Virus record (IMG/VR): IMGVR_UViG_3300044617_000270
Location: 1 to 37,773 of that record
From: a virus
Length of the DNA stretch: 37,773 bases
Reading direction: 5' to 3' (one strand)
Shown: in pieces, positions 3,527 to 36,228 of the stretch
Position numbering within the stretch: position 1 is the first letter of the stretch
Layout: the number at the start of each line of letters is the position of its first letter
Notes under the pieces: model-generated
The model's input: only the letters and a program-made list of their open reading frames with translations
What the model was told of the DNA's origin: nothing
Database searches by the model: none
Program-made: the position numbers and the translations under genes

Positions 3527-3542
3527 TCTGGAGTCCATTACC

Positions 3543-4270: not shown

Positions 4271-4274
4271 CACC

Positions 4275-4694: not shown

Positions 4695-4699
4695 ACATC

Positions 4700-5149
4700 A
4701 TGGGTTTAGACATGTACTTGAAGGCAAAGAAGTTCTATTACGATGAAGCTGAAGGTAACGCAATCATCAAGCTAGCTATGCCTGATAATCATTCATTCAA
4801 GAATCTACGCTCAGTAGATGTATGCATTGAGATTGGATACTGGCGTAAGGCTAACGAGATTCATAGCTGGTTTGTGAATAACGTACAGGACGGGGAAGAC
4901 GATTGTAGGGAGTACTACGTAGACCCCAAGCATATCGAGGAATTGCTTGCAACTGTACGTGAGGTACTGGATAACCCCAAGCTAGCTGAGAACATGCTAC
5001 CTACACAAGGTGGATTCTTCTTTGGTTCCACTGAGTATGATGAGTACTACTTCAGTGAGCTAAGGCATACAGAGGAGATGCTAGCCAATGTGCTTAGCTT
5101 TGTGAAGGATAACCCAGGCTATAATTTGTACTATCAATCATCATGGTAA
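4700..5149 (+). CDS. conserved phage hypothetical protein (MGLDMYL family)
   Basis: A 149-residue acidic protein. The N-terminal MGLDMYL, the central IGYWRKANEIHSWFVNNVQ and the segment TQGGFFFGSTEYDEYYF are hallmarks of a small protein family widespread in phages and phage-derived islands; its function is unknown to me. It has clustered aromatic residues and a DDC/EYYVD segment near residue 75. It follows the previous gene after 5 nt, and its stop overlaps the ATG of the next frame (ATGGTAA). Cytosolic; no membrane segments. Confidence 0.75.
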   Translation: MGLDMYLKAKKFYYDEAEGNAIIKLAMPDNHSFKNLRSVDVCIEIGYWRKANEIHSWFVNNVQDGEDDCREYYVDPKHIEELLATVREVLDNPKLAENMLPTQGGFFFGSTEYDEYYFSELRHTEEMLANVLSFVKDNPGYNLYYQSSW

Positions 5150-5912: not shown

Positions 5913-6782
5913 ATGAACACATCACTCGACACCGTACTTCCCGCACTTCCCCAGATCCTTGACTTCGATCCAGTGCGTGAGCCTCAGATCCGTAATGGTG
6001 TAGCTATCCGTAACCAGTACTGGGTAGTCAATCCTAACACAGACACCGTGATCGGGAATGGTAAGTCCATTCACAATCCCCAGAACTTTAGCAAGGTATG
6101 GGATAGTTTCCGTGAGGGGTTACTGCACTCAGGTCTGGATACGTCCGAGGCTGAGGTCAAATTCAATGTCATCAAGGAAGGTGCTGCCATGGAAGCACAG
6201 ATCGTACTCAAGCGTTACCAGTACGAACAAGTGCTTGGTGAACCTGCCAAGATGACCATGTCCTTCCGTGACTCACATGACCAGTCAATCCGTAGGCAGA
6301 TCAGGGCTATGATCTATCGCCTAGCTTGCCTGAACGGTATGATTGCACCACGTGAGGCAGTTGGTATTGTACAGAAGCATACCACCTACAGTGATCCAGA
6401 TACCGTAGGTAAGATTGCTTCCAAGTTTCCTGATCAATTGCTGAAAGATGCACAGGTCATGCGCTTGATGCAGGGTGTCAAGGTTCAACGTGCAGATGCC
6501 ATTGATTTCCTTGAGCGTAACGTAGCTACCTATCCAACCAAGACGGGTACGAAAGTTAACAAGAAGTGGTTAGATCGTATCGTAGGTATTCACGATAGCT
6601 ACAATATCCTAGGTGAGAATAGTTATCATTTGTACAATACTCTCACTCACATAAGTACCCACGTGGAATCACGTACTGCTGATGTAGCTACCAAGCGTAT
6701 CCGTATTGAGCAGGACATCGAGTCTGTGATTCGTGGTGAAGAGTTCCAAACTAGGTTCATGCCTGAATTATTAGCTGCATAG
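5913..6782 (+). CDS. DUF932 (phage/plasmid-like) protein
   Basis: A 289-residue protein of the DUF932 type, common in phages, plasmids and integrative elements; the biochemical role is unknown. Features seen are the N-terminal YWVVNPNTDTVIG region, in which the protein refers to its own usual layout of a beta-rich first half, the central FRDSHDQSIRRQIRAM and YRLACLNGMIAPRE (residues about 120-148; the family has a typical SxDgs...R...RxVCxNg block), and a helical C-terminal half. The length fits the family range. AAGGA lies 8-9 nt before the ATG. It follows the previous gene by 1 nt and is preceded by iteron-like repeats. Confidence 0.75.
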   Translation: MNTSLDTVLPALPQILDFDPVREPQIRNGVAIRNQYWVVNPNTDTVIGNGKSIHNPQNFSKVWDSFREGLLHSGLDTSEAEVKFNVIKEGAAMEAQIVLKRYQYEQVLGEPAKMTMSFRDSHDQSIRRQIRAMIYRLACLNGMIAPREAVGIVQKHTTYSDPDTVGKIASKFPDQLLKDAQVMRLMQGVKVQRADAIDFLERNVATYPTKTGTKVNKKWLDRIVGIHDSYNILGENSYHLYNTLTHISTHVESRTADVATKRIRIEQDIESVIRGEEFQTRFMPELLAA

Positions 6783-6792
6783 GAGAGTAGAC

Positions 6793-6933
6793 ATGAAGAC
6801 GGGACATAGGCGTAGCCGTAACCCAGTAGCAAAGGACTTACGTACACCCAAGTACCGTCTTCGTGTACTCAAGGATAAGCGTAAGCAGTTGCAAGAAAAG
6901 CTTATTAAAAAGGAGATCGAAGATGTTAAGTAA
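6793..6933 (+). CDS. small basic phage protein (RNPVAK motif)
   Basis: A 46-residue, very basic protein, MKTGHRRSRNPVAKDLRTPK followed by a Lys/Arg-rich tail. The RNPVAKxLRTPKYR pattern is one I associate with tiny conserved proteins of tailed phages; no function is known. AGGAG lies about 7 nt before the ATG. It is likely co-transcribed with the DUF932 gene, and its end overlaps the ATG of the next gene by 11 nt. The positive charge could favour nucleic-acid binding, but this is inference. Confidence 0.65.
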   Translation: MKTGHRRSRNPVAKDLRTPKYRLRVLKDKRKQLQEKLIKKEIEDVK

Positions 6934-7180
6934 GATGTTTGAACATATACTTGTACTGTCCCAGATTCTAGTGGGTATTGCCTGTATTTGTCTGATTGGT
7001 TTTTATATCATTGAGTCAGACAACAGGAACATAGCCGAGCGTGTAGCACGTAATCTATGTAAGCCTACAGAGGGACACTTGGTACGTGAACTAAATGATC
7101 GTGGTGATTACTTTTGTTACTCACGAAACAAGGACGGTAAGACATTCAGTAGGGTCGTATTAAATACAGGAGAAAATTAA
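6923..7180 (+). CDS. small membrane protein
   Basis: An 85-residue protein with one strong transmembrane helix at about residues 8-28 (LVLSQILVGIACICLIGFYI) and a polar C-terminal domain containing two cysteines. The ATG at 6923 is preferred because GGAG lies 8 nt upstream; an upstream in-frame extension lacks an RBS. It overlaps the previous gene by 11 nt and shares one base with the next start (TAATG). Likely anchored in the inner membrane with the C-terminal domain outside or inside undetermined. Function unknown. Confidence 0.65.
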   Translation: MLSKMFEHILVLSQILVGIACICLIGFYIIESDNRNIAERVARNLCKPTEGHLVRELNDRGDYFCYSRNKDGKTFSRVVLNTGEN

Positions 7181-8035: not shown

Positions 8036-8696
8036 ATTAATTTCATATACATACGTAAACACTGGAGCATTTGTAGATGACGATGGCGTTTATACAGGAC
8101 ATCCCCAAACGATTAAAGAACTGGTTGCGTACTGCGCTCGTGTCTCGAATCCATCCAATCAGTTCAACAGCAAAACCGCAGACAAACTACTGGAGTACCT
8201 CATTGAACATAAGCACTGGTCGCCTTTCGAGATGGTCAACCTCTGCCTTGAAATCACTACCACCAGAGACATTGCAAGACAGATCCTCAGACATAGATCC
8301 TTTAGCTTCCAAGAGTTTAGCCAACGATATGCTGACCCAACTAAAGAACTCGCATTTGTACTTAGAGAAGCAAGGCTCCAAGACAAATCTAACCGACAGA
8401 ATTCTATTGAAACTAATGACAAGAGATTGCAAGAAGTCTGGGAGTACCACCAACTCGCAGTGAAACATGCAGCACTAGATGCCTACAACTGGGCTATCAA
8501 GCATGGGTTAGCTAAGGAAGTTGCAAGGTCTGTGTTGCCTGAAGGTATGATGGAATCTAGGATGTACATGAATGGGACATTGCGTAGTTGGTTGCATTAC
8601 CTAGACCTACGTACTAAGAATGGTACACAGAAGGAGCATGTAGAGGTAGCACTGGCATGTGCAGAGGCTATTGCTAGTGTCTTTCACTTAGAGTGA
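8025..8696 (+). CDS. thyX: flavin-dependent thymidylate synthase ThyX
   Basis: A 223-residue enzyme that makes dTMP from dUMP using methylene-tetrahydrofolate and FAD/NADPH in the cytosol. The signature RHRxxSxQxxSxR is complete at residues 89-101 (RHRSFSFQEFSQR), and length is in the normal range. C-terminal residues about 150-180 (VLPEGMMESRMYMNGTLRSW) match the ThyX substrate-binding part with the conserved Arg. It begins with GTG and overlaps the preceding gene by 11 nt. Together with the nrdA/nrdB genes at 19.3-24.2 kb it gives the phage its own route to dNTPs. Phage ThyX is common in aquatic lytic phages. Confidence 0.95.
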   Translation: MKVKLISYTYVNTGAFVDDDGVYTGHPQTIKELVAYCARVSNPSNQFNSKTADKLLEYLIEHKHWSPFEMVNLCLEITTTRDIARQILRHRSFSFQEFSQRYADPTKELAFVLREARLQDKSNRQNSIETNDKRLQEVWEYHQLAVKHAALDAYNWAIKHGLAKEVARSVLPEGMMESRMYMNGTLRSWLHYLDLRTKNGTQKEHVEVALACAEAIASVFHLE

Positions 8697-8705
8697 GGAG
8701 TTAAC

Positions 8706-8897
8706 ATGTACGCAGATGACTTTAATCGTATTGCAAAGTACACCCGTGTGGGGTCTATCTATGGTGATAAATCCCTCATGGATTTTGCTGAGGCAGTTGC
8801 CTATGAATCCAGTGAACGACAGCTAACTCACTGCATCAATCTGTTGGAGAAGTATGGCATGAAGGAAGCTGCAGATATATTAAGGGGTGAAGGATGA
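8706..8897 (+). CDS. small hypothetical protein
   Basis: A 63-residue, all-helical looking soluble protein (MYADDFNRIAKYTRVGSIYG at the start, then EKYGMKEAADILRG). Family not recognised. GAGGAG lies about 6 nt upstream. It is tightly packed between thyX and the next small gene, overlapping the latter by 4 nt (ATGA), so it is probably part of the same transcript. Confidence 0.65.
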   Translation: MYADDFNRIAKYTRVGSIYGDKSLMDFAEAVAYESSERQLTHCINLLEKYGMKEAADILRGEG

Positions 8898-9199
8898 ACC
8901 ACACTGAAATCATACAAGCTGTAACTGCCACACCATTAACTGCTATCGATCTACAAAAGAAGTTTAAAGTACCACATGCCCGTGTAGTAGCTGTATTACA
9001 GTACATGCGTAAGCAAAACATGGTCATTGCAGTTAAGGTAGGTACTAAGTGGGCATGGACAGTGCCAGGATATGTACCCGAAGAAGTTGTCGTTACACAA
9101 CCTGAGTCTAAGAAAGAACGTATGAAGTTCCTATCAACCGTATTCAACAATTGGGGTAGGCAATCACATGAGGCAAGCCAAACGAACACGGATAGCTGA
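8894..9199 (+). CDS. winged-helix-like small protein
   Basis: A 101-residue protein whose residues 1-55 fit a winged helix-turn-helix pattern: helix EIIQAVTATPLTAIDLQKKF, then HARVVAVLQYMRKQNMVIAVK with a wing-like ending TKWAWTVPG. The C-terminus is polar. It starts by ATGA overlap with the previous gene and runs 32 nt into the recombinase gene. Its position just before a tyrosine recombinase makes a regulator or directionality-type role conceivable. The fold call is from pattern only; no direct family match. Confidence 0.6.
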   Translation: MNHTEIIQAVTATPLTAIDLQKKFKVPHARVVAVLQYMRKQNMVIAVKVGTKWAWTVPGYVPEEVVVTQPESKKERMKFLSTVFNNWGRQSHEASQTNTDS

Positions 9200-10088
9200 T
9201 GCAGTAGAGCAGTACTACAAGTCACTTGAGTACCGATCACTCTCTCCCCAAGCACAGAAAGATTATCGGTATTGTCTTAACACTTTCTTACAGACACCTC
9301 TCATGGGCAGGAAGGTAGAGGTTATGTACCTACAAACCCTTACTACACCCTTAGCCCAACGTGCATACAATGCGTGGGCTGAGAGGGGTGTACCTTTTGC
9401 TAATCACACCATGTCTGCTGCCTCTGTAGTCTATAACTTCTCCATACGGGTAGGATACTGTGAGATAAATCCCTTCAGCAAGGTACTTAGGAGGCCACAC
9501 AAGCCACGCAAAGTAGTCTGGACTAGGGAGGATATCACCCGCTTCCTAAACGTGGCTTATAGCTCGTTTAATACCCGTTCTGTGGGGTTGATAGTTCAGA
9601 TGGCATACGAGTGGTGTCAGAGGCTAGGTGATATGTCCAATCTGAAGTGGGCTAACTATAACTTTGATACTAAAGTACTATCATTGGAGCAGTCAAAGCG
9701 TAGGGCTAGGGTAGAGTTACCTACAACGGAGGAGTTACATGAGATGCTAGTGCAGCAGAAGCAGGAAGTAGGCACAGACTATGTAGCTCCTCAGTGCCAC
9801 AGCAATAGGATCTTTAACAAGCCTTACGATAAGTTTCAATTGGCAATCGTGGCAAGGAAAGTGATACGTAAGGCAGGGTTACCTGAAGAGCTACAGATTA
9901 TGGACATGAGAAGGACAGGCACGATGGAGATGGTCGATGCAGGTGTTTCATTACCACAAATCATGTCAGTGACTGGACATGTAAGTCCGGGTTCAGTAAC
10001 CCCTTACATGAAGAACACTTTGACAAGTGCTAAAAATGCTGCTAAGCTTCGCTTCACCAACACGGACAGTGTACATTTAAATGATTAA
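9168..10088 (+). CDS. int: tyrosine recombinase (phage integrase family)
   Basis: A 306-residue site-specific recombinase. Residues 1-105 form the SAM-like core-binding domain, and residues 115-300 the catalytic domain. Catalytic residues seen are R152 (in WCQRLGD), likely K177, R248 (DMRRT), H271 (in VTGH) and nucleophile Y280 (TPYMK). The usual first histidine of the HxxR box is methionine (M245), which may reduce activity or be tolerated. It overlaps the preceding gene by 32 nt and the primase by 8 nt, so it is part of the replication transcript rather than a separate lysogeny module. No clear repressor or attachment site is visible. It could integrate the phage or act in dimer resolution. 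Confidence 0.85.
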   Translation: MRQAKRTRIADAVEQYYKSLEYRSLSPQAQKDYRYCLNTFLQTPLMGRKVEVMYLQTLTTPLAQRAYNAWAERGVPFANHTMSAASVVYNFSIRVGYCEINPFSKVLRRPHKPRKVVWTREDITRFLNVAYSSFNTRSVGLIVQMAYEWCQRLGDMSNLKWANYNFDTKVLSLEQSKRRARVELPTTEELHEMLVQQKQEVGTDYVAPQCHSNRIFNKPYDKFQLAIVARKVIRKAGLPEELQIMDMRRTGTMEMVDAGVSLPQIMSVTGHVSPGSVTPYMKNTLTSAKNAAKLRFTNTDSVHLND

Positions 10089-10890: not shown

Positions 10891-12082
10891 AGATTTCTAT
10901 GATGAAACACGAGGGGCTAAGTGTCCCGACAAGATCTTTAGCAAGGATCTACGCAAGATAAAACAACTCATTGACAAAGCCATGGAAGAGTACCAACGGG
11001 ACATAACCCCAGAGGAACTAGAGGCTTTGTACTTCACCGAGAATCCCACACTTACAACGGCACAGAAACATGCCATGCATCTTGAGTTTAAAAAGATACA
11101 TGGAAGTTCTGTCATGGGTTCAGATGTAGCACAGAAAATAATCAGTAACCTGTTCAGGCAACTAGTAGGTGAGGAGGTAGCCAACCTAGGATTCCAGTAT
11201 GTGAATGGTGAACAGAGCACCATGGAACCACTGAGGCAGATCCTTGATAACTATCAGGATGACTTCACCCCACAGATACGAGTTAATTATGTAGACAACA
11301 GCATTGATAACCTGCTAAGCAAGGCAGCTAGCAATACCAAGTGGAGATTCAACATACCTTCATTGTTTAATTCAGTGCAAGGCTTAGACAACGGTATGCT
11401 GTTTGTGATCGGTGCTAGATCTAACGTAGGTAAGTCAAGCTTTCACAGTACCTTATGTGCTTCACCTCATGGATGGGCAGCACAGGGAGCACGTATCCTA
11501 GTATTGTGTAATGAGGAGAAACCAGAGCGAGTGGCTAGCAGGTACATGACAGCAGCTACAGGTATGACCATGACACAGATAGCTGCTGACAAGGCACAGG
11601 CACACAGGCTTTATGATCCCATAAAAGACAATATAAAGTTTGTAGATGCTACAGGTAAGACCATGAGATGGGCAGAGTCAGTGATCAAGACACACAAGCC
11701 TGACATTGTAGTGCTTGACATTGGATCTAAGTTTGCTGAAGATGGGGCATCTACTCAAGATCCTGCAGTACTTAAAGCCAATGCAGTGTATGCAAGAAAC
11801 ATTGGGAAGATGTATGGTTGTCTTGTAGTTTATTGCACACAGTTATCTGCTGAGGCTGAAGGTAAGATCGTTCTATCTCAAGCCATGATTGAAGGCAGTA
11901 AGACAGGACTTGCAGGAGAGAGTGACCTAATGATTTTAATTGCACGTAATCCTCCATTGCAGGACTCTACAGATGGTGATGATGGACAGAGACACTTGAA
12001 CATTGTAAAGAATAAGATCAATGGTATACACCGAATCATCCATGCAGAGTTTGATTATTCCACTGGAGTGTACTTCTCATGA
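10856..12082 (+). CDS. replicative DNA helicase (DnaB/RecA-fold)
   Basis: A 408-residue helicase of the DnaB/gp4 superfamily. The N-terminal 150 residues are helical (DnaB-like N-domain or primase-contact region). The RecA-like core has Walker A GARSNVGKS at about residues 186-194 and Walker B IVVLDIG at about 284-290; a basic-region arginine motif follows, and the C-terminus is VKNKINGIHR-like, typical of DnaB-type phage helicases. It unwinds the duplex 5' to 3' for the phage polymerase and recruits the primase. ATG 10856 is preferred to TTG 10844. The start lies inside the primase gene, which couples their synthesis. Confidence 0.88.
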   Translation: MEHALLKSLLDKDFYDETRGAKCPDKIFSKDLRKIKQLIDKAMEEYQRDITPEELEALYFTENPTLTTAQKHAMHLEFKKIHGSSVMGSDVAQKIISNLFRQLVGEEVANLGFQYVNGEQSTMEPLRQILDNYQDDFTPQIRVNYVDNSIDNLLSKAASNTKWRFNIPSLFNSVQGLDNGMLFVIGARSNVGKSSFHSTLCASPHGWAAQGARILVLCNEEKPERVASRYMTAATGMTMTQIAADKAQAHRLYDPIKDNIKFVDATGKTMRWAESVIKTHKPDIVVLDIGSKFAEDGASTQDPAVLKANAVYARNIGKMYGCLVVYCTQLSAEAEGKIVLSQAMIEGSKTGLAGESDLMILIARNPPLQDSTDGDDGQRHLNIVKNKINGIHRIIHAEFDYSTGVYFS

Positions 12083-12303
12083 ATAAAAGTATTGAAAATC
12101 AGGCAAGGTGGTACGCAATCAAGGTATTGCTAGGGTATCTAGTGCCTATTGTATTGTTTGGTATCTTTGCCTACATAGATGCAAAGCTACTTTTGATAGC
12201 CCTAACTGCAGTGTTTGTAGGATTTATATGTGCAGGTATTTATCGTGATTACTACAATGAGAAGTTAGAGGAGTTGAAGAATGAACAGGTTAGAAATTCT
12301 TAA
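12079..12303 (+). CDS. small two-helix membrane protein
   Basis: A 74-residue protein with two predicted transmembrane helices (about residues 14-32, VLLGYLVPIVLFGIFAYID, and 36-54, LLLIALTAVFVGFICAGIY) and a charged C-terminal tail ending in an acidic-basic helix. It starts by ATGA overlap with the helicase and overlaps the next gene by 23 nt. This hairpin topology occurs in phage holin-like or host-membrane-modifying proteins, but its place in the replication operon argues against a lysis role. Function unknown. Confidence 0.65.
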   Translation: MNKSIENQARWYAIKVLLGYLVPIVLFGIFAYIDAKLLLIALTAVFVGFICAGIYRDYYNEKLEELKNEQVRNS

Positions 12304-12517
12304 AGAAGTATATGGTGAGTGTGAATGGTCTGAATCGGCATTAACACATCTTATAAAAGTTATGGAACTTACCGCTAAAGAATGCATAGATAAGATTGAA
12401 ACCTATCGTATTCCTGTAGGTAACAGTCGATCCGGTGAGCTTGCATGTGAGTGGACTTACAATGCACTGAAAGAAATTAGAGATGACATCAAGGAAACTT
12501 TCGGAGTTAAAGAATGA
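12281..12517 (+). CDS. small hypothetical protein
   Basis: A 78-residue acidic soluble protein, predicted largely helical (KEVYGECEWSESALTHLIKV, then KEIRDDIKETFGVKE). Family not recognised. It overlaps the preceding gene by 23 nt and the next by 4 nt (ATGA), with GAGG at about 10 nt upstream, so it is translated as part of the run from the helicase. Confidence 0.6.
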   Translation: MNRLEILKEVYGECEWSESALTHLIKVMELTAKECIDKIETYRIPVGNSRSGELACEWTYNALKEIRDDIKETFGVKE

Positions 12518-12720
12518 CTGTAGATACTTACACACGAAAAGCCAAGTTTGCTGAACTTAAACCATACGACCAATTTGCTGATGCGGATGACTTTATGGAA
12601 GTCTGTGAGTGGCATAATGGTGAAGGGTTTGATGTCACCATAAACAATCGTGTTGTTTCATTCACTTTGGGACAGTGGGAATGCCTACAAGTATTGGTGA
12701 ATTACAAGGAGTCAGTTTAA
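12514..12720 (+). CDS. small hypothetical protein
   Basis: A 68-residue acidic protein (MTVDTYTRKAKFAELKPYDQ at the start) with a beta-rich C-terminal half (DVTINNRVVSFTLGQWECLQ). Family not recognised. The start overlaps the previous stop by ATGA. The gene ends 2 nt before the first gene of the GC-richer accessory block, so it marks the left border of that block. Confidence 0.6.
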   Translation: MTVDTYTRKAKFAELKPYDQFADADDFMEVCEWHNGEGFDVTINNRVVSFTLGQWECLQVLVNYKESV

Positions 12721-12722
12721 TT

Positions 12723-13163
12723 ATGAGTGGTGATCACAATATGTACCAAAAAACTAAGTCATACCTTGATGATTTTGAGTGTCCACGCTGTGGTCATTGC
12801 TGTCAAGCACTGGAAGAAAAACGAGAGCCGTTGTATTGGAGCGTTGCTGATGGATGGGTTTACGACGACGACACATCGCAAAAACGTGTCGATGAAAAGG
12901 CAAAACGTGAACAAGAGCCGGTGGCGTGGATTACCAATGGGGGCAAGGGGGAACTTTGGTGGCATCGCTCATCAAAGTTCGATGAAGAAGGCAACCTGAT
13001 CGGCCCCAATCCAGATGACATACCACTCTACACCGCACCACCAAAGCGTGAATGGGTTGGGCTGACGGGTGAGGAGATCAGCGCAGTGGATTGGAAACCT
13101 AACGAGACTTTGCATGACTATGCAAGGCATATAGAACTTAAATTAAGAGGTAAAAACACATGA
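12723..13163 (+). CDS. accessory phage protein with PVAW and WVGLTxEE motifs (copy 1)
   Basis: A 146-residue protein. I choose ATG 12723, with AGGAG about 11 nt upstream. The N-terminus has a cysteine cluster CPRCGHCC, zinc-ribbon like. The C-terminal 90 residues carry the modular pattern EPVAWI, then PLYTAPP, then REWVGLTGEEI and a final helix ending KLRGKNT. I recall this modular pattern from small accessory genes in Burkholderia- and Pseudomonas-type phages; its function is unknown. Two related copies follow at 13546 and 13958. Codon use is GC-richer than in flanking replication genes, which suggests transfer. It ends in the coupling sequence GAGGTAAAAACACATGA. Confidence 0.7.
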   Translation: MSGDHNMYQKTKSYLDDFECPRCGHCCQALEEKREPLYWSVADGWVYDDDTSQKRVDEKAKREQEPVAWITNGGKGELWWHRSSKFDEEGNLIGPNPDDIPLYTAPPKREWVGLTGEEISAVDWKPNETLHDYARHIELKLRGKNT

Positions 13164-13549
13164 GCCAGCAGGATTCTTTATGTCCAAAGTGTGGGCTAAT
13201 CTCGTGGAGCGGTCATCGCTGTGCGGCAATTCTTGAAGGAGAAGAACACATGAACCCACAACCCAAAGCCTTAGTGCTGGCTGATGCGCTAGAAGAACTT
13301 GACGTGCAATTCAGCCACACGGGTCTATGCGGAGAAGCCGCCGACGAACTGCGCCGATTGCATGTATGGGAAAAGGCTTACGAAGCCGTATGCGATGAGC
13401 GAGATGCGATCATAAGGGATTCAGATAAAGCCCATGCGCTTCTGCGATGGGTTGAGAAAGAGATGCGCTACGCCGGGTTGGACATACGCTTAAACGACCA
13501 GCACGGACGCACGGATGTGTACGAGGCCATCAAGGAGTTCTTAGCATGA
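13160..13549 (+). CDS. accessory phage protein, possible two starts
   Basis: A 129-residue protein from ATG 13160, or 99 residues from ATG 13250. The longer form adds an N-terminal CPKCGL...GHRC zinc-knuckle-like segment. The internal start is preceded by GGAGAAGAACACATGA (13238-13253), the same sequence that forms stop, RBS and start in the neighbouring genes. The sequence MNPQPKALVLADALEELDVQ after it looks like a natural phage-protein start. The C-terminal part is charged and helical (DAIIRDSDKAHALLRWVEKE). It may be a fusion of a short zinc-knuckle gene with an older gene. Function unknown. Confidence 0.65.
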   Translation: MSQQDSLCPKCGLISWSGHRCAAILEGEEHMNPQPKALVLADALEELDVQFSHTGLCGEAADELRRLHVWEKAYEAVCDERDAIIRDSDKAHALLRWVEKEMRYAGLDIRLNDQHGRTDVYEAIKEFLA

Positions 13550-13776
13550 GCGAAAACAAAAACGCAAAGACACCAGCAGACGGACCTGTGGCATGGAGTT
13601 GCCAGTGTGGCAGGCCTTATACGGTTACCTGTATTTCAAGCAAACCACAAAAGAAGGAATGGGTTGGGCTGACGGATGAGGAAGTATGGGAGGCGATTGA
13701 TGATGTGCTTGAGGGTGGTGGATGGCTTGATGTAGCGAGAGCTCTTGAACAAGCTTTTAAGGAGAAGAACACATGA
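13546..13776 (+). CDS. accessory phage protein with PVAW and WVGLTDEE motifs (copy 2)
   Basis: A 76-residue shortened relative of the gene at 12723. It has GPVAWSCQCG near residue 14, then KKEWVGLTDEEVWEAIDDVL and a helix ending AFKEKNT. The PLYTAPP stretch is missing, replaced by a cysteine-containing segment. The start is ATGA-coupled to the preceding gene. The end GGAGAAGAACACATGA (13761-13776) encodes the EKNT tail and simultaneously provides RBS and overlapping start for the next gene. Function unknown. Confidence 0.65.
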   Translation: MSENKNAKTPADGPVAWSCQCGRPYTVTCISSKPQKKEWVGLTDEEVWEAIDDVLEGGGWLDVARALEQAFKEKNT

Positions 13777-24446: not shown

Positions 24447-24621
24447 TGTTAGCATTCAGGTAACCCTACAAGAAATAGAGATCATTCTTAATTTGATTAA
24501 GAAGACCCCTATTGAAACTGGGCTATACCCTATGTTCGTTAAGCTAGTAAATCAGTACAATGCTATAAGGCAAGAGTTAGCAGCTAAAGAGAATGCAGCT
24601 ATCGCAGACCCTCTAGCCTAG
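24433..24621 (+). CDS. small hypothetical protein, last rightward gene
   Basis: A 62-residue, mostly helical protein (SIQVTLQEIEIILNLIKKTP near the start). It is the last gene of the rightward block; its 3' end overlaps tail to tail by 23 nt with the last leftward gene (stop at 24599). No intrinsic terminator is visible at this junction, so opposing transcripts may run into each other. Family not recognised. Confidence 0.6.
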   Translation: MQNDNVSIQVTLQEIEIILNLIKKTPIETGLYPMFVKLVNQYNAIRQELAAKENAAIADPLA

Positions 24622-27600
24622 CTGCATACTCATACACTGAGGCGTAATCTTTGGCATCTTCAAGGGTTACGCCTTTGTCACGTTTGTACATATCATTGAT
24701 AGCCAAGCGTCTTTGTTGAGATAGCCTGTTGTATGCCATCTTATCTACACGCTCTTTATCTTTAGCTGTCATGTCACCCTGCACAATCGAACGTGCAGCA
24801 CTTAAAGCAGTTGACATGTTATTAGTTATAGCAACTTTCTTTTCTCTATCTGACATTGCATTGTATTCACGTGAGTCAATGCGTGGTATCACAACTTGTT
24901 TAATCCATTTACCTGCTTCTTTAATGACTGCACGATCATAGATCTTATCGCCAGTAGATCCAAACATTTGATAGGGATCTAAGTTGAGTCTTTCAACTTC
25001 TTGCTCAAGCTTGTTGCCACGTGGTACGACACGAACACCTGCTAGTGTGCTAAAGAATTCACCCGCACGTATGGGAGTTTCCTCACGTAAATAGGGCAAG
25101 TATTCAGGTAAGTCTGCCTTACCTCTTCCAACCACAGGCAGTGGTGTCTCAAGTGCGGGTACTTTAGATTTAAGTACGTTACCTGCTGATACAGCAATAA
25201 TATCTTTCCATCCCTCTGCCTCAACAACATTAGGATCACGAACAATTCCTGATTCCCTGTCTATTAAATCAAAGTAAGAAAAGACAGGTTGTCCTGGCTG
25301 CATAAATCTACCTACAAAGTTACCCATCACTTTGCCTATAGCTTTAAGTGCCCTGTCAGAGTCTTTGCCCTCAGTGCCAGACAGCAACTCAGGCAGTGCT
25401 TCAAAGATTGTGCCCTGAGTTCCAGCAGGTAGTTTTAAACCTGCCATGGTTTCAATACCCTCACTTACTTTAATCTCTTCTTCTTTCTTTAGTTTAGATT
25501 TAGCTAAAGTGTCACCTATCCAGAATGCAGGACCGGCAGGGAAGAGGGAGCGTATGTCTACGGTACTACCATCTTCGGCTTGTATATTGTTCCACTTGGT
25601 GTCTTGATTCTCTAATCTGTATTTATAGGCTGCATATATCATTGCAGTGCCAACAACACCTTGAGAAAACTTTCTCGTGCCATCACGGAATAGCCTATCT
25701 ATTTCAATAGCCTCGTCAGTAACTTTACCTTGTGCTGTCTTTTTTATGGCTGCAGGGTTAGTTAAAAACTTATCTGTGGCTTGCAAGATATCAGATAGAC
25801 CTGATGCCGCACCGAAAGGGCTATACTTATATTGGAAGGCTATAGCGTTAGCCATAAATCTAGGGAATGGCACAGCCAAACTACTGCCAGGGAACTTTTC
25901 TATGCCACGGATAATATAGTTAGCTGCTGTCTCTGTCATATTCTCGATAGATGTGGCAGCTTTAGTCTTTGGCATATAGGAAAAGGTAGCCTTTAATGCA
26001 TCATCAGCAGCATTGTTTAAGATACTAGTAGGTATCTTTTTATCATTGGCTAGTATTTCCATCATATCCATGCCAACCCTGCGTAAGCTTCTCTCCACAC
26101 TGGCAGTGAATACGGCCCTACGGAACAGAGCATCCTGTGCTACGTTAAGTGAGTTCACAAAACGTGCACCTTTACTTAACTCCTGGTCCCCTGATTCTTG
26201 CAGTGAGTTAAGCATAAGGCTTCTTAACTTTGGATTATCTGCTAGAATAAGATCCATAGTTTCTGCTGTCATTCCTGCATCATTTAGTTTGATAAGCGTA
26301 CTAAAAGAGTCATTAACAATGTTGCTCATGCTTTGGGAAAAGTCGCCCCTTTTAAATGATCCCGTGACTGCTGATTTAACAAGCTTTCCTGTCTCATATA
26401 TCGTACCTTCAAGAAGTCTGGATGCCGCATCTAAAGTAAGAGCACCCATAGTACCGTATACGTTTCTTATGGTAGTACCTAAACCAGACACCATGTAAGC
26501 TTTAGACTCTCTTTCAAGTCGGGACACAGCATTAATAGTTGCAGCACCTGAACTGACTATTTCATTGTCTCTTCCGTACAAACCATCTATAAGTCTTTGT
26601 GACTCTGGGTCTAGTTTCCCTACACTATTGAGTGCTCTCGACAGACTACTAAGACCTGCCAAACCTCTGCCCATTTCACTGGCAGTAGTTAATGAAGCTT
26701 GACCAAATTCACTTAAAGTTATATTGGCCTTTTTAAGTGCATCGTTAAATATTTCATCTGGTATTGTCACAGATCCTTCAGGTAAGTTTTTACTACGCTC
26801 ACCCAAAATCATAAACACATCTCTAACTGCTTCCATCATTTGCTGCCCCTTCTTTGGTTTAAAAGCAGGGTCAGCATCCATGATGTATTTAACTACATCA
26901 AGAGATCTTTTATAAATATCGTTCTTTATTTTGCCATCTGTTACAGACGTTGGTGGTGTTATTTCATCCAGTACCCGTGTTCTACCTTGCTGTATGTCAA
27001 ACTGCTTAAGAACATCTTCCATCTCACGATCAAAGGCTTCTATAAAATTAGTTGTTTGCGGATTAGATGTTGGCTTTCTTTTTCCTGCTAGCTTTTCTTC
27101 TAAATCTTTCTTATATGTAGCAGGTTTACGTGCCACACTTGCAGCCTCAAAACCACTCATCGCTGAGCCTAATACGCCTGCAAAAGCAGCTTCACCTAAA
27201 TCAACTGGACCTTCTGTAGCCCCACTCTCAATTCTAATACGCTGCTGTACAATATTAGATCCAGCAGATATAGGTGCTTCTACGACAGCAGCAGTGACAC
27301 CTGTACGCAATGGTGTACTGAATGCTTTTTTAAGTAGCTGCCGTGCAGCAGCATACGTAGCAAATTTCCCAACGCCCAATCCTGTGTAGGTAAGAGGATC
27401 ACTGGCAATGGACATAACAGTCTCTGCGTAAGGTCTTATGCCTTCCTGCCCACCTTTAAGTATCGCAATAGGCACACGATCCCATAGATCGATAGCCTTA
27501 CCTGCCTTCTCTGCATCTGCAGGTTTGGCATTAGCAATCCAGTTTAGCTCAGGTACTGCATTGAGTATCGTGTTGAGTTCAATCTTACGCATCTCAGTAG

Positions 27601-27982
27601 CAAACCGTTTAGCGTAATCTTCATTAGATTCATCTTTCTTCTGCTCGCCAACCTTACCAAATCTAGCTGTCATATAGTCTTTAATGACATTAAAGTTCTC
27701 TGGCTTTTGGTACAAGTCAACAAAGTCTACTTTATTCTCACGTTCATACCGTTCTATCTCAGCACGATCTTCCCGCTGCTTAGCCATAATACCTTTAGTG
27801 ATCTGTGTCACTTTAGCTGCAGGTTTACCGTACTCTTTAAACATGCTAGTACGTTTATAATCTTTTAAGTCATCGGCAGTGCCACTGACTTCTATCTTTG
27901 GTGTGCTATCCCATTTAATACCTTCATCTTTCTGTGGTACTACAGAAGGTATAGGATCCCATTTGATATTTTCATCTGCCAT
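24599..27982 (-). CDS. large internal virion / ejection-type protein
   Basis: A 1127-residue protein, the last gene of the leftward late operon. By position and size it corresponds to the internal core proteins (gp15/gp16-like) that T7-like phages eject into the host envelope; no sequence match was visible. N-terminus: two IKWD-containing segments. Residues about 190-290 are Ala/Gly-rich and amphipathic (VTAAVVEAPISAGS), perhaps membrane-active. The rest is mostly helical, ending in YASVYEYAARLEGLR. No lytic transglycosylase motif was found. Its start shares one nucleotide with the stop of the preceding gene. Its 3' end overlaps the last rightward gene by 23 nt. Confidence 0.6.
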   Translation of the reverse strand: MADENIKWDPIPSVVPQKDEGIKWDSTPKIEVSGTADDLKDYKRTSMFKEYGKPAAKVTQITKGIMAKQREDRAEIERYERENKVDFVDLYQKPENFNVIKDYMTARFGKVGEQKKDESNEDYAKRFATEMRKIELNTILNAVPELNWIANAKPADAEKAGKAIDLWDRVPIAILKGGQEGIRPYAETVMSIASDPLTYTGLGVGKFATYAAARQLLKKAFSTPLRTGVTAAVVEAPISAGSNIVQQRIRIESGATEGPVDLGEAAFAGVLGSAMSGFEAASVARKPATYKKDLEEKLAGKRKPTSNPQTTNFIEAFDREMEDVLKQFDIQQGRTRVLDEITPPTSVTDGKIKNDIYKRSLDVVKYIMDADPAFKPKKGQQMMEAVRDVFMILGERSKNLPEGSVTIPDEIFNDALKKANITLSEFGQASLTTASEMGRGLAGLSSLSRALNSVGKLDPESQRLIDGLYGRDNEIVSSGAATINAVSRLERESKAYMVSGLGTTIRNVYGTMGALTLDAASRLLEGTIYETGKLVKSAVTGSFKRGDFSQSMSNIVNDSFSTLIKLNDAGMTAETMDLILADNPKLRSLMLNSLQESGDQELSKGARFVNSLNVAQDALFRRAVFTASVERSLRRVGMDMMEILANDKKIPTSILNNAADDALKATFSYMPKTKAATSIENMTETAANYIIRGIEKFPGSSLAVPFPRFMANAIAFQYKYSPFGAASGLSDILQATDKFLTNPAAIKKTAQGKVTDEAIEIDRLFRDGTRKFSQGVVGTAMIYAAYKYRLENQDTKWNNIQAEDGSTVDIRSLFPAGPAFWIGDTLAKSKLKKEEEIKVSEGIETMAGLKLPAGTQGTIFEALPELLSGTEGKDSDRALKAIGKVMGNFVGRFMQPGQPVFSYFDLIDRESGIVRDPNVVEAEGWKDIIAVSAGNVLKSKVPALETPLPVVGRGKADLPEYLPYLREETPIRAGEFFSTLAGVRVVPRGNKLEQEVERLNLDPYQMFGSTGDKIYDRAVIKEAGKWIKQVVIPRIDSREYNAMSDREKKVAITNNMSTALSAARSIVQGDMTAKDKERVDKMAYNRLSQQRRLAINDMYKRDKGVTLEDAKDYASVYEYAARLEGLR

Positions 27983-30117: not shown

Positions 30118-33100
30118 TTAACCTCCAGGAGCTATACTGAATTCAAAATCAGATAAGCCCTCTACCAATTTACCAAACGTAGCATCATCTACCCCTAATG
30201 TTTCAGCACTTAAACCTATGTCATTAAATTTACTAATGTCAAAACCAGCGAATGGATTTGCTGCAGTGCCGCTTGCCATGCCTTTAAATATATTTGTCAC
30301 TGTATCCACAGCAGCCTGACCTAATGTAGTTTTACCTAGTAAGCTAGCAGTTAAACTACCCATGGCATTAACGGCGGCAGCAGTACGAGAAGCTTCTGCA
30401 GCTTTAATCGTGGCATTCTCTTGTATCTTGGCAATAGCCAATCTATTCTCACGATCTAGATCATTCTCACCTGCTTGATAGGCATACTGCATACTATCCC
30501 TATAACCCTGCCACATGTTGTTATACTGGGTTGTAGTCACAGATAAAGCAGCTTGAGCATTCACTTCATTAGCACGGTTAGTAGCTGCCGTATCAGCAGT
30601 GGCAATATTCCTTCTCCACTCTGCATTAGATTGATCAATGACTAATTTCTGCTGTGCATTAAACTGTTCACGATTAGCTGTTAGCTGAGCATTGAATTGC
30701 TCTACACTATTTTCCTGTCCAGTATTAAACTGTTCCATGGCATTTGTCTGTGCTGCATTGAACTGACTAACCTGTGTCTTAAGTGAAGCAAAGAACTGAT
30801 CTGTCTGCATTTCAGATGTAGCATTAAACTGCTTAGATGCGTTATCAGCAGCAGCATCATTAAAGATACTTTGTGTTATAGCCTGTGCCTTAAACATATC
30901 AGCTTGCTGCTGATTACTAAGGTTAGTAAGATCCATTTGCAAGAAGGCTTTAGCATTCTCTACAGCAGCCTGTTGCCTGTTGTTGAGATTAGCCATATCC
31001 ATAGATGCATAAGTAGCTGCATTTTGTAATACAGCAGCTTGCTCAGCATTTAAATTAGCTAAGCCAATAGTCTTCATTAATTCTGAATTATGAAGTGCAG
31101 CAGTCTGCTGTGCAGTAAATGTAATATTATTAGCTTCTGCATAACGTGAAGCATTGATAACTGCAGTCTGTTGCTTATTGTCTAAATTCTTTAGTTCAAG
31201 TGCAGCTTGCAACTGAGCATTAGCTACAGCAGCTTGTTGCTTTGTACTTAAGTTTGCTAGATCTGTCTGTAAGTTTTGAGCACTAGATTGTAAAGAAGCC
31301 TGTTGTTGATTATTTAAATTGATGTTTAGTACATCAGACTCTTTTGCTGCATTCATAAGTGCAGCTTGCATTTGATTGCTTAGATTCTGACCTTGGAATG
31401 CAGCACGAATCTGAGCATTAGCAAGCATAGTCTGCTGCATGTTACTAAGATTCTGAGATTGCAGACTAAAAGCATTTGCCGAGTTTTGTAGGGCTACTTG
31501 CTGCTCTGCATTAAATTTAGCTAACTCAACATTTTGCTGTGCTGCTGCATTAGCAAGTGCTACTTGTTGCCTATTGTTCAGATTCTGCAAATTCATTGCT
31601 GCAAAAGTCTCGGCATCTTGTGCAGCAATAGGTAAGGCAGACTCCATAGCAGCTTGGAAGATAGCTGCACCTGCCATAGAACTGTTACCTAAGCCTCTAG
31701 ATGCCATAACCGCATTAGCTGCACGAATAGCACCAGCAGCCCATGCAGGAGTCTTACCATCATCAAAAGACTTCATCAACTCGGTAAGCTGTCCCTGTAC
31801 CGTAGCTTTTGCAGGTACATCACCTTCAATAAAGGCAGCTAGTGTACCTGCATCAACAGTAAACTTTTCTAATTTAGCAGCTACAGCTGTAGCATCTGTA
31901 GATAAACCATCAGCAGTGATAGCCTCTGCCTGTACCATATCCTTTTCTTGGATAGTGACAGGAGTTACTTTCTCACGTTCAGTTATTTCACGTGTCATTG
32001 CTGCTACTTCAGCAGGCTTATTAGCTTCTGCAGCAGTAATAACAGGAGCAGAAGTTTGTGTCTCTGCAGAAATAAGCTCTGTTGGATCTACCTTACGTGT
32101 AGCATCAGTAGCAAGTAACTGTTTATTTTTATCATCAAATGTAGCTGCTGTAGCTAATGCTTCAGTAGATAAAGTACCCTGTTCAGCAGCTACCTTAGCC
32201 TGCTCAGATACAGTGCCAGTTTTTCCTGTCACTGTTGAAAGTGCTTTAGTTATGTCTGCTTCAGTTGAGGTAGCTTCATATGTCTGTGCAGTAAGTGAAG
32301 TTGGCTCTGCTACAGTTTGAGTAGTACCTACTGTTTTAGCTGTAGCACCTGTAACTGCACCTGCACCACCTTGCCCACTAATAACTTGATCAGCGGATTC
32401 CTGTATTTTAACTGGGGCTACTTTAGGTACAGCACCAATAATAGGCTGTCCTGTCGTAGGATCAGTCCTTACTGTAGGGTCAGATACGGTATAGCCAAGC
32501 CCTGCCATTTGATCGATAGTAGCTTGATCTACACCTGCCCTCCTTAATATGTCAGGTGTAATGTTGTTTGTATTATAAAAAGCTACTTTCTCTGAGGCAT
32601 TTAAGCTATCCCAGTTATCAGGTAGTTTGACATTTGTACCAGCTACAGTTTTACCTGCATTAGTGGCTGCGCCTTGTCTAGCAGTGTTTTGATTAACTGC
32701 AGTTGTAGCTGCAGTATTATTAGTAGCTGCAGTTGTAGCTGCAGTATTATTAGTAGCTGCAGTTGTAGCTGCAGTATTATTAGTAGCTGCAGTTGTAGCT
32801 GCAGTATTATTAGTAGCTGCAGTATTATTAGTAGCTGCAGTATTGGCCCCCATGTTGCGTTGAGCTAAAGACTCTTGGTTGCTTTGCTCCTGGAACTGTT
32901 GGGCATAGGGCTGAATTGCTTGTTGAAGAGCAGAAGCTGCCCCCTGAATGTCCTGCAAGCTAAAAGGACTTTTTCCTTGTCCAAAAGCATCTTGTAGCTG
33001 ACCGAACTGCTGACTCAACCCCATGTAGTTTTTATAGGTTGGATCAGCCTTAAAAAGCTGTGCAAAATCGGGAAGTTTCGTAGCAACTGCAGTATTGGTG

Positions 33101-33660
33101 GTAGTAGTAGCTGTGTTATTGACAGTAGAATTACCTGCAGCTACATTAGCAGATGCATTAGTGGCAGCAGCAGGGTTAGTAACTGAGTAACCCATATTCT
33201 GTGTCATGTGATCAATCGTAGCTTGATCTACACCAGATGCAGCAAGCATAGCTGGTGTGACACCTTGTTGATTATAAAACTCTACTTTCTTATCCCCACC
33301 CAGTGAATCCCAATTAGAAGGGAGGGCAATATTAGTACCTGCTATAGTCTTACCTGCATTAGTAGCAGCACCTTGTTGTGCAGTAGTATTGGTAGCACTT
33401 TTCTGAGTAACGTCAGCTTCTACAGAAGTGGGATCATCTTCAATACGCTTGTCACCTACACCACCAACAGCGTACTTCTTACGCTTAGTCTTCTTAGCCA
33501 GACCGCCACGTGCCATATATTTATCCGCAACTAATCCATACCTTTGTGCCATTGAAGGATCAGATTTAAGAAACTCATCGAACATAGACATAGGACCATC
33601 GTAGCCCAATCTACGTGCTACAATCTCTTTTTGCTTTGTAGTAAATTCTTTGCTTGGCAT
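30118..33660 (-). CDS. giant repeat-rich virion protein
   Basis: A 1180-residue late protein, largest in the window. Residues 45-67 have a Gly/Lys motif (MARGGLAKKTKRKKYAVGG) typical of aquatic phage structural proteins. A segment at residues about 96-163 is duplicated at about 329-396 (both QGAATNAGKT...AGTN...NWDSL...GVDQATID...GY). Between them, residues about 274-320 are a tandem NNTAATTAAT low-complexity tract from 30-bp DNA repeats. Residues about 690-925 contain around ten 22-residue repeats with consensus L-N-N-x-Q-Q-x-A-x-x-N-A, a two-by-eleven pattern that predicts a coiled-coil rod. The C-terminus is globular. No enzymatic motif. Likely an internal or tail-associated rod protein. 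Confidence 0.7.
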   Translation of the reverse strand: MPSKEFTTKQKEIVARRLGYDGPMSMFDEFLKSDPSMAQRYGLVADKYMARGGLAKKTKRKKYAVGGVGDKRIEDDPTSVEADVTQKSATNTTAQQGAATNAGKTIAGTNIALPSNWDSLGGDKKVEFYNQQGVTPAMLAASGVDQATIDHMTQNMGYSVTNPAAATNASANVAAGNSTVNNTATTTTNTAVATKLPDFAQLFKADPTYKNYMGLSQQFGQLQDAFGQGKSPFSLQDIQGAASALQQAIQPYAQQFQEQSNQESLAQRNMGANTAATNNTAATNNTAATTAATNNTAATTAATNNTAATTAATNNTAATTAVNQNTARQGAATNAGKTVAGTNVKLPDNWDSLNASEKVAFYNTNNITPDILRRAGVDQATIDQMAGLGYTVSDPTVRTDPTTGQPIIGAVPKVAPVKIQESADQVISGQGGAGAVTGATAKTVGTTQTVAEPTSLTAQTYEATSTEADITKALSTVTGKTGTVSEQAKVAAEQGTLSTEALATAATFDDKNKQLLATDATRKVDPTELISAETQTSAPVITAAEANKPAEVAAMTREITEREKVTPVTIQEKDMVQAEAITADGLSTDATAVAAKLEKFTVDAGTLAAFIEGDVPAKATVQGQLTELMKSFDDGKTPAWAAGAIRAANAVMASRGLGNSSMAGAAIFQAAMESALPIAAQDAETFAAMNLQNLNNRQQVALANAAAQQNVELAKFNAEQQVALQNSANAFSLQSQNLSNMQQTMLANAQIRAAFQGQNLSNQMQAALMNAAKESDVLNINLNNQQQASLQSSAQNLQTDLANLSTKQQAAVANAQLQAALELKNLDNKQQTAVINASRYAEANNITFTAQQTAALHNSELMKTIGLANLNAEQAAVLQNAATYASMDMANLNNRQQAAVENAKAFLQMDLTNLSNQQQADMFKAQAITQSIFNDAAADNASKQFNATSEMQTDQFFASLKTQVSQFNAAQTNAMEQFNTGQENSVEQFNAQLTANREQFNAQQKLVIDQSNAEWRRNIATADTAATNRANEVNAQAALSVTTTQYNNMWQGYRDSMQYAYQAGENDLDRENRLAIAKIQENATIKAAEASRTAAAVNAMGSLTASLLGKTTLGQAAVDTVTNIFKGMASGTAANPFAGFDISKFNDIGLSAETLGVDDATFGKLVEGLSDFEFSIAPGG
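32701..32838. repeat. tandem 30-bp repeats in the giant virion gene
   Basis: The 30-bp unit that begins AGTTGTAGCTGCAGTATTAT is repeated exactly four times (32701, 32731, 32761, 32791), followed by an 18-bp partial unit (32821-32838). It encodes the NNTAATTAAT low-complexity tract on the minus strand. Perfect identity points to recent expansion, and unit lengths of 30 and 18 keep the frame. Confidence 0.9.
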
Positions 33661-33664
33661 ATCT

Positions 33665-34138
33665 TTATCCTAACATAACGGCTTCTGCATTTCTTCGTAT
33701 GGTTAAGCCTCTTAGTACCCTACCTGCAGCTTTATTCCACTTCCTACATTCTTCTTGTGCACCTGCCCAATCTTTGGCATCAATGCGTTTTTTAAATGTG
33801 GATATCCGATAGTTACCTAACCCACAATTATACACCCAAGATAATATAGCTGCAATACGCTTTGGGTTTTCTTGTGCGACCCCAGGTGATAATTTTAATA
33901 ATCCATTAAGAAAGTATAGTAGGTGTTCATCTAAAGCATGTTCACATTGTTCCATAGTCCACACAGTATCTTCAGTAATATCTGGACCTGTAGAACCGTA
34001 GCCTATAGTCCAAGGCTTGCCACCTGTCCCTGGATCTGGATAAGCTTTTACTAATTTGTTTGGTAGTATTGTTGCACAGCCTTCAAAGGGCTTTATTAAT
34101 GTTTCTTTTGATATTTTAATAGCCTCTTTAAGACTCAC
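33665..34138 (-). CDS. endolysin, GH24 (T4-type) lysozyme
   Basis: A 157-residue muramidase that cuts the glycan strands of peptidoglycan to release phage. Catalytic residues of the GH24 family are visible: E19 (PFEGC), D35 (AYPDPGTGG) and T44 (PWTIGYGST). The C-terminal half has the usual helical lobe (LSWVYNCGLGNYRISTFKKR, then EECRKWNKAAGRVLRGLTIR). There is no signal peptide or signal-anchor, so it needs a holin, which fits the neighbouring membrane proteins. It starts with GTG, and the GTGA overlap with the cyclase stop shows translational coupling to that gene. Confidence 0.93.
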   Translation of the reverse strand: MSLKEAIKISKETLIKPFEGCATILPNKLVKAYPDPGTGGKPWTIGYGSTGPDITEDTVWTMEQCEHALDEHLLYFLNGLLKLSPGVAQENPKRIAAILSWVYNCGLGNYRISTFKKRIDAKDWAGAQEECRKWNKAAGRVLRGLTIRRNAEAVMLG

Positions 34139-35367
34139 TGCCTCATCCTATTTTCATCTAAAAACTTTATTTCATCTACTAAAGCATCTGCATCTGTTTT
34201 AAAGTTATTAAAATCACTCTTGCTTAAAGTCTTATTAAGTGCATCTAATAACTCTTGTGCTTCTTTATTGTGCTGAGCACGTGCTGCATACAACCATCTA
34301 AATGCATTTTTATTATCATTGATACTTTTATAGTACATACCTAGGTTTAACATAGCTTGTACTTTACGTTTCATTGCATATTCTTTTAAATCGCTAATAG
34401 CTTCTTCTATTTCTTTATCACTACTATTAGGGCTATTAAAAATCATAAGAGCTAAACGGTAATTAGCTTCTTCATTTACACTAGCAGCACCACGTAGAAA
34501 CTGTAAAGCTAAACTAGGACTATCTTTCTCTATAAGGTCTGCTATCTGCATAGCAGTTTCACTATCTACTTTAGTGCAGTATTCTTTAAATATAGCAAAT
34601 ACATAAGGCTTAAGATCATTAGGGACAATATTTTTCTGTAGCATATTGACTAATTCACTTACAGCTTTATTATCTTGCTTACTAATTCTCCACATTAATA
34701 CACGAGTAGCAGGACCATACTTATTATCATGCTTAAGATTAATAGCATCTTGTATACTATGATTACGTGCAGCTTGATCGTTGATAACTGCAGCTATTAA
34801 TTCTTTATGACTTTTATTATTTGTTACTTTTGTAGGCTTAGTACCTTTATTTAAATACGGGTTAGGTTCACATCCATCGATTATAACGCTATATATTTCT
34901 ATAGGGTTTACATTTTTAAATTCTTGTACACCCCTACTTATAATTTTATAATCATTTAGTTTACCTGATACTAACTTATACACAGTGTCTGTCATAGTGA
35001 CACCACCGTAGTCAGCTAGGGATTCCGTTCTTGCTGCAAGATTAACTGCTTCACCCATAAGATCAGTGCCATATACCCACACTTCTCCCATATGAATACC
35101 AACTCTCCACCGTAAACCACTGTTTAATTTACGTAAAGCTGCTTGCATTTCAACACCAAAATTAACTGCATCGACAGCACTTGCAAACTCAATTAATACA
35201 GAATCCCCACCTGTGTTAAATAACCTGCCACGTTTTAAACTGATTAATGGGTCTATAACACTTCTACATGCATCTAACATCTTTAATGTTAAAGATTCAT
35301 TCTCTTGCATCTTTGCACTATAGCCAATGACATCAGAGCATACAATAGTAGCAAGTTTAGTTTGCAT
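34135..35367 (-). CDS. class III adenylate/guanylate-type nucleotidyl cyclase with Sel1/TPR-like C-domain
   Basis: A 410-residue protein. Residues 1-175 are a class III cyclase catalytic domain: metal-binding D12 (VCSDVIGYS) and D55 (FNTGGDSVLIEF), and D102, N109 and R113 in TDLMGEAVNLAAR, matching the purine-selecting Asp and transition-state Asn/Arg. The lysine that usually selects adenine is N51 here, so the base is uncertain (cAMP most likely, others possible). Residues about 190-400 are helical with Sel1/TPR-like repeats (LNLGMYYKSINDNKNAFRWL). No membrane segment. It sits inside the lysis cassette, 2 nt after the 3TM holin gene, with its stop overlapping the endolysin start (GTGA). A second-messenger enzyme made at the time of lysis is unusual for a phage. 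Confidence 0.85.
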   Translation of the reverse strand: MQTKLATIVCSDVIGYSAKMQENESLTLKMLDACRSVIDPLISLKRGRLFNTGGDSVLIEFASAVDAVNFGVEMQAALRKLNSGLRWRVGIHMGEVWVYGTDLMGEAVNLAARTESLADYGGVTMTDTVYKLVSGKLNDYKIISRGVQEFKNVNPIEIYSVIIDGCEPNPYLNKGTKPTKVTNNKSHKELIAAVINDQAARNHSIQDAINLKHDNKYGPATRVLMWRISKQDNKAVSELVNMLQKNIVPNDLKPYVFAIFKEYCTKVDSETAMQIADLIEKDSPSLALQFLRGAASVNEEANYRLALMIFNSPNSSDKEIEEAISDLKEYAMKRKVQAMLNLGMYYKSINDNKNAFRWLYAARAQHNKEAQELLDALNKTLSKSDFNNFKTDADALVDEIKFLDENRMRQ

Positions 35368-36060: not shown

Positions 36061-36228
36061 CTATTTACCTTTCAATTCATTAACATGTTTCCAAAGCTCA
36101 GTGATTTGTTTATCATAGCCCTTCTCTAGATAATCGACACGAACTTTAATAGTTACAGCATACGCTGCAATAGCTACTACAGCAGCACCTAGATACCAGA
36201 GTTTACCCAGTGTTTCTAGAGCGTCCAT
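36061..36228 (-). CDS. short membrane-anchored protein, spanin-like topology
   Basis: A 55-residue protein (MDALETLGKLWYLGAAVVAI at the start). One N-terminal transmembrane helix (about residues 10-27, WYLGAAVVAIAAYAVTIK) is followed by a charged amphipathic helix (DYLEKGYDKQITELWKHVNE). ATG at 36226-36228 and stop TAG at 36061-36063, 1 nt before the next gene. The small size and the anchor-plus-helix topology resemble i-spanin-like or holin-accessory proteins, and it is located with other lysis genes. No o-spanin lipobox was found nearby. Confidence 0.55.
   Translation of the reverse strand: MDALETLGKLWYLGAAVVAIAAYAVTIKVRVDYLEKGYDKQITELWKHVNELKGK

Follow-up and report, generated by a model that had tools for sequence, protein, structure and literature searches.

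The stretch of viral DNA analyzed here (hereafter the window; an IMG/VR record of 37,773 bases that may be incomplete and whose genes were scanned selectively) encodes a protein that, judging from its sequence and predicted fold, is a genuine phage-borne class III nucleotidyl cyclase, complete at the metal-binding and transition-state residues. We consider it rather probable that this is a host-derived, long-kept signaling gene, coding for an active cyclase whose cyclic nucleotide would be read by receptors of the host and would shift host physiology in favor of the phage. Most likely the protein is active and makes cAMP (probably) or cGMP (possibly), acting through host receptors. We infer enzymatic activity, product, use of host receptors and benefit to the phage, and the analysis suggests that phages carrying the cyclase rewire the internal signaling of their hosts during infection.

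The cyclase locus and its protein

The DNA polymerase of the window shares 61% identity with its counterpart in Puniceispirillum phage HMO-2011 and about 60% with the one in Roseobacter phage CRP-1; an integrase, a Cas4-type exonuclease, a ribonucleotide reductase and a helicase are encoded as well. The cyclase gene sits in a block of minus-strand genes together with tail fiber and lysis genes and large genes without assigned function (Table 1). Two very large proteins encoded on the minus strand (1127 aa, positions 24599–27982, and 1180 aa, positions 30118–33660) gave no Pfam or PHROGs matches; the latter is rich in Thr, Asn and Ala and contains repeats resembling Asn-Leu-(Asn/Ser)-x-x-Gln-Gln.

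Table 1. Features of the cyclase locus, with positions in the window.
Feature	Position	Strand	Evidence
Class III nucleotidyl cyclase with Sel1/TPR-like C-terminal domain, 410 aa (P0001)	34135..35367	-	ORF; PF00211; AlphaFold2 model and fold search; relatives in 56 further viral contigs
Cyclase catalytic domain, residues 1-163; metal binding D12, D55; transition state N109, R113; base-selecting N51, D102	34879..35367	-	Alignments
All-helical Sel1/TPR-like domain, residues 186-408	34144..34812	-	Profile search, AlphaFold2, Foldseek
Endolysin (phage lysozyme), 157 aa, GTG start	33665..34138	-	PF00959 (Phage_lysozyme), E 1.1e-27; phrog_7; start overlaps cyclase stop (GTGA)
Probable holin, 160 aa	35370..35852	-	phrog_6637, E 3.6e-26 (unknown function); phrog_3427 (holin), E 1.6e-4
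Small hydrophobic lysis-cassette protein, 66 aa	35859..36059	-	ORF; kept beside the 55-aa gene in relatives
55-aa "cluster 1" protein, hydrophobic stretch followed by charged helix-like tail	36061..36228	-	Clustering, alignment, distribution

The open reading frame of the cyclase starts with ATG, and residues 6–159 of the protein match PF00211 (Guanylate_cyc) in Pfam with an E-value of 2.2e-9 (37.6 bits, cut-off 21.9). The solved structures nearest by sequence are 3mr7 (E 4.9e-20) and Rv1900c/LipJ (E 9.7e-11). An AlphaFold2 model of the whole protein, built on 34 relatives, reached a mean pLDDT of 89 and a pTM of 0.50; both domains are therefore well predicted, while their placement relative to each other is not. 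Using Foldseek, the N-terminal domain of the model matched class III cyclases, with Rv1900c as the best hit (TM-score on the target 0.85–0.90, probability 1.00). A previous reading of the locus, made from the sequence only, had proposed a complete class III cyclase domain with D12, D55, D102, N109 and R113; the PF00211 match, the Rv1900c-like fold and the presence of these residues at the given positions confirm it. The Sel1/TPR-like helical C-terminus proposed at the same time is likewise supported by profile matches of the C-terminal part to 6deh (E 1.3e-8) and to the SEL-1 protein 8sxq (E 4.7e-7), by a model of this part alone with a pLDDT of 93 and, weakly, by the fold search (best hit 6deh, E 7e-4); the Pfam scan gave no match of the Sel1 model on the cyclase protein.

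Active site, selection and the putative product

The metal-binding Asp pair, on whose conservation in homologs the sequence-only reading had made its case depend, is kept, D12 and D55 being invariant in phage and cellular rows of the alignment alike. The transition-state residues N109 and R113 are invariant in the alignment, too, and all four residues as well as N51 are identical across 44 distinct phage sequences. At position 102, Asn is found in 39 of these 44 proteins and Asp in five, the window protein belonging to the minority. Purifying selection acts on both the cyclase and the C-terminal domain: for most pairs of phage cyclases dN/dS of the whole gene is about 0.03–0.16, and the values for the catalytic and C-terminal parts are similar. 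An invariant active site combined with low dN/dS is the pattern expected of an active and useful enzyme.

The Lys/Asp pair with which canonical adenylyl cyclases select their base is absent, the window protein having Asn51 and Asp102, so that we infer, rather than read off, that the phage cyclase is "adenylyl". From the replacement of Lys by Asn51 a non-standard product had been argued before. This argument did not hold, as Asn51 is present in 46 of 65 bacterial relatives (a biased sample, drawn by similarity) and the experimentally studied Rv1900c also aligns Asn at the lysine position; the Asn-Asn pair occurs in 29 of the 65. We regard a product other than cAMP, be it cGMP, cCMP, cUMP or a mixture, as rather unlikely. 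Asn51 and Asn102 (Asp102 in the window) do stand in place of the Lys and Asp that read adenine; however, Asn51 is widespread in bacterial relatives without any sign of pyrimidine specificity, position 51 does not carry the Glu of guanylyl cyclases, and similarity to PycC is weak, as PycC profiles matched the window protein with E-values of 0.002–0.014 (best 0.0023), well short of the match to cyclases in general. The residues thus seem to leave the product between cAMP and cGMP, pyrimidine nucleotides being less likely.

Distribution among phages

Relatives of the cyclase were found in 56 further IMG/VR contigs of up to 400 kb (41–100% identity, full-length or partial; the count includes some near-duplicates), and the window gene is therefore not a chance occurrence. 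Identity is 45–100% in 52 of these contigs, where the relatives are mostly full-length, and 41–46% in the other four, all full-length. In INPHARED, no relative was detected among 50,697 sequenced phage records at an E-value of 1e-5, and relaxed cut-offs gave only two matches to the cyclase, both distant and partial.

Clustering of the neighboring genes revealed at least six phage backbones or settings that carry the cyclase. In the podovirus-like group of the window (setting A) the gene lies between holin-like and lysozyme genes. In setting B it directly follows the gene of a 58-aa small protein, with PhoH-like and ribonucleotide-reductase-like genes (both recognized by eye) nearby, and in setting C, which has a DNA-polymerase-like gene nearby, it is located on the opposite strand, facing the small-protein operon. 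Large phages (setting D) have the cyclase between the genes of a HemF coproporphyrinogen oxidase and a DnaB-like helicase; in the contigs of setting E the gene of the terminase large subunit follows 0.5 kb downstream of the cyclase. A T4-like contig with a DUF6267 gene makes up setting F, and L303/L315 represent a further setting. Within setting D, contigs L015 and L331 keep a similar local gene order even though the cyclases of L331 and the window share only 46% identity, which indicates a long and stable residence of the gene in this setting.

Several other genes were observed on the cyclase contigs. The HemF gene (PF01218, E 1.6e-123 in L015, positions 8355–9236) lies near the cyclase in the large phages L015, L016, L017, L018, L030, and L043, and is apparently another host-derived metabolic gene. 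Genes for PstS-like phosphate-binding proteins are present on L034 (positions 2979–3986), L053, L020, and L042. Phage PstS was also tried for host assignment: the best matches of the L034 protein (72–76%) came from two genomes of the phylum-wide sample, compared to at most 68% in the family sample, and no host was indicated. In two phage groups, large proteins with signal-peptide-like N-termini are conserved near the cyclase (L045, positions 3636–5099, and L034, positions 11250–13688; clusters 5 and 6). One of them is rich in Asn/Ser/Thr repeats, and neither has a Pfam match.

Origin and cellular relatives

In the phylogenetic tree, 36 phage two-domain proteins form one clade (support 98/82), which nests with L091 (95/80) and then with L094/L096 (99/97), all full-length homologs from Burkholderiaceae, while alphaproteobacterial cyclases stand apart. 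This topology agrees with a single ancient transfer of the gene from a cell into phages and later exchange among phages. The possibility that the window cyclase is a recent, isolated capture from a host and missing from related phages, named in the sequence-only reading as the finding that would speak against it, is rejected by the single phage clade and the dN/dS values.

A first set of search patterns retrieved no homolog from cellular genomes; a second alignment recovered L054. The nearest cellular two-domain proteins are found in few Burkholderiaceae genomes, namely L054 (from a MAG) and three more species of its genus, in which the two-domain gene is rare (4 of 186 species). Other cellular matches in the phylum-wide sample span the cyclase domain only. 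The L054 cyclase gene is located between rpoN and the gene of a cNMP-binding protein (PF00027, E 1.2e-19), 188 bp from the latter, and motA-, motB-, and flhB-like genes were recognized nearby by eye. In the other cellular branch the cyclase adjoins a GAF-PAS-cyclase gene, close to a class I phosphodiesterase (E 1.3e-9). By analogy, these neighborhoods give a hint that motility or general cNMP control might be the host process affected by the phages.

Possible function in the infected cell

According to the mechanism we propose, the protein would act as a homodimeric class III cyclase that converts, inside infected cells, an NTP (most probably ATP, perhaps GTP too) into a 3',5'-cyclic nucleotide, and its Sel1/TPR-like domain would serve as a docking or gating module by binding a partner that localizes or gates the cyclase. 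Cyclic-nucleotide-binding proteins of the host itself would read the signal, and host physiology would shift to the benefit of the phage. The cNMP-binding domain PF00027 was not found in 30 phage records, with positive controls, although a distant receptor could be missed on these partial contigs, and in the window no gene of a cNMP-binding effector lies beside the cyclase. Since the phages have no recognizable receptor, the signal would be read by host proteins. A search of the phages with PF00233 (PDEase_I) gave no matches, but the controls gave none either.

A more far-reaching version, which we consider doubtful, is that a second-messenger synthase is an infection tool common to unrelated aquatic phages: the host would be flooded with a cyclic nucleotide, which may be other than cAMP, so that either cNMP-based immunity is disarmed or a pathway of the host is switched, and the Sel1 domain would dock the enzyme to a conserved protein of the host. 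It is improbable that counter-defense is the function of the cyclase, the product competing with or desensitizing cNMP-based host immunity such as Pycsar, or providing a harmless ligand as a substitute. The distribution over unrelated phages and the selection on the gene are as for a counter-defense gene, and the non-canonical base-selecting pair would agree with it as well; nevertheless, the PycC profile matches are weak, the nearest cellular relatives adjoin ordinary cNMP signaling genes and not defense effectors, and many other bacterial relatives have the Asn-Asn pair, too. Membership in Pycsar, suggested by the kinship drawn in the sequence-only reading, was rejected on the weak PycC profiles and the lack of a cyclic-nucleotide-binding (PF00027) effector in the 30 records.

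The holin-endolysin junction

In the window the cyclase gene is tightly packed between its neighbors: 2 nt separate the stop of the holin-like gene from the ATG of the cyclase, and GTGA is shared by the cyclase stop and the lysozyme start. The placement described before, 2 nt after a holin gene and overlapping an endolysin gene, is thus correct for the spacing, the overlap and a clear endolysin. The 160-aa upstream protein is only a probable holin, as its strongest match is to a family of unknown function (phrog_6637) and the match to the holin family phrog_3427 is weak. Close relatives have the cyclase at the same holin-like/endolysin site. When loci were collected through the 160-aa holin-like protein, nine out of 80 relatives had the cyclase at this site; in most of the remaining loci the holin-like gene runs straight into the lysozyme gene. 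ORFs resembling HNH endonucleases (pattern read by eye, no profile) were seen at this junction in L138 (positions 6491–6958), L193 (1957–2436), and L203 (2953–3411). Together with the optional cyclase they mark the junction as an insertion-prone site. In the window phage the cyclase has been inserted into this junction, and late synthesis is therefore probable; other phages have it at a different position and probably express it at a different time.

Neighbor clustering placed the small protein of 55–58 aa beside the cyclase in 38 locus sets and in most of the backbones. Since it often accompanies holin-like and lysozyme genes at loci lacking the cyclase as well, it probably belongs to the lysis cassette and is not a dedicated partner. 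An obligate partnership was rejected: when the count was confined to sets leaving 1.5 kb of room to either side, the small protein occurred without the cyclase in 31 and with it in 23.

These data also bear on the idea that the cyclase times lysis together with holin and endolysin, e.g., through the adjoining small membrane protein, which has a low probability in our view. The location of the cyclase between the holin-like and endolysin genes in the clade of the window and the recurrent neighborhood of the 55-aa family are in line with such a control, but the same cassette mostly lacks the cyclase, the small protein occurs without it, the cyclase of setting C lies on the strand opposite to the small-protein gene, that of the large phages lies between the HemF and DnaB-like genes, and the junction shared with HNH-like ORFs may be a mere insertion site. 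Lysis timing, raised as one option in the sequence-only reading, is not supported as a general function, given the nine out of 80 relatives and the location of the cyclase elsewhere near PhoH, replication genes or terminase, or on the opposite strand. The linkage to lysis is a property of the clade of the window phage only, and not of the cyclase family. That the cyclase is cargo useless to the phage and moves with mobile insertions at permissive sites, as the HNH-like ORFs at the junction in L138, L193, and L203 and its optional presence in the group of the window could suggest, is highly improbable in view of the low dN/dS, an active site invariant over proteins down to 41% identity and the gene order shared by L015 and L331.

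Comparison with known systems

Phages destroy immune cyclic-nucleotide signals by means of anti-CBASS and anti-Pycsar nucleases (PMC9117128); the opposite, synthesis of such a signal by a phage, has hardly been described. In a literature search by title and abstract opening, a phage-encoded class III cyclase was not found beyond the curli-linked case of marine pelagiphages, which is the precedent found (PMC9599517). The distinct family described here occurs widely in uncultured phages, is under purifying selection and is all but missing from the 50,697 sequenced phage records; it raises a testable question: does infection by the cyclase phages raise the cNMP of the host, and via which receptor?

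Among cellular proteins, the cyclase domains of Rv1900c (LipJ) and of the Silicibacter pomeroyi protein 3mr7 are closest to the phage cyclase among solved folds and sequences. Both are cellular, LipJ is fused to a lipase/hydrolase instead of a Sel1 domain, and the residue of Rv1900c that corresponds to Asn109 of the phage protein is His (PMC4886424). The cyclase-Sel1 proteins of Burkholderiaceae (L054/L091 of genome G030; L094–L096) share the same two domains over the full length and a complete active site, L054 with 34% identity. In contrast to the phage genes, theirs are chromosomal and lie beside cNMP-binding, sigma-54 and flagellar-like genes, or beside phosphodiesterase/GAF-cyclase genes. 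PycC of Pycsar has the class III cyclase fold in common with the phage protein, which differs in its Sel1-like C-terminal domain, in the absence of a cNMP-gated effector from the phage records and in the weak profile scores.

The adenylate cyclase of viral curli (T8SS) operons in pelagiphages is of bacterial origin and has passed between myo- and podoviruses (PMC9599517). It resembles the present family in being phage-encoded, taken from bacteria and exchanged between phages. The pelagiphage enzyme comes from Alphaproteobacteria, and its gene is linked to those of CsgG, CsgF, and FecR (PMC9599517), whereas the present family groups with Burkholderiaceae proteins; for the pelagiphage cyclase this comparison uses the published description. 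A curli linkage like that of the pelagiphages was rejected, as CsgG (PF03783) was not found in 30 phage records of the cyclase family, with positive controls. One phage-contig cyclase (L287, positions 5977–6645) is of alphaproteobacterial type, has a hydrophobic segment and branches apart from the present family in the tree; it may be kin of the curli-linked pelagiphage cyclase. Phage-borne cyclases as such thus have a precedent, and the present family is, as far as sequence and domain composition indicate, distinct from the pelagiphage curli cyclase in both origin and architecture.
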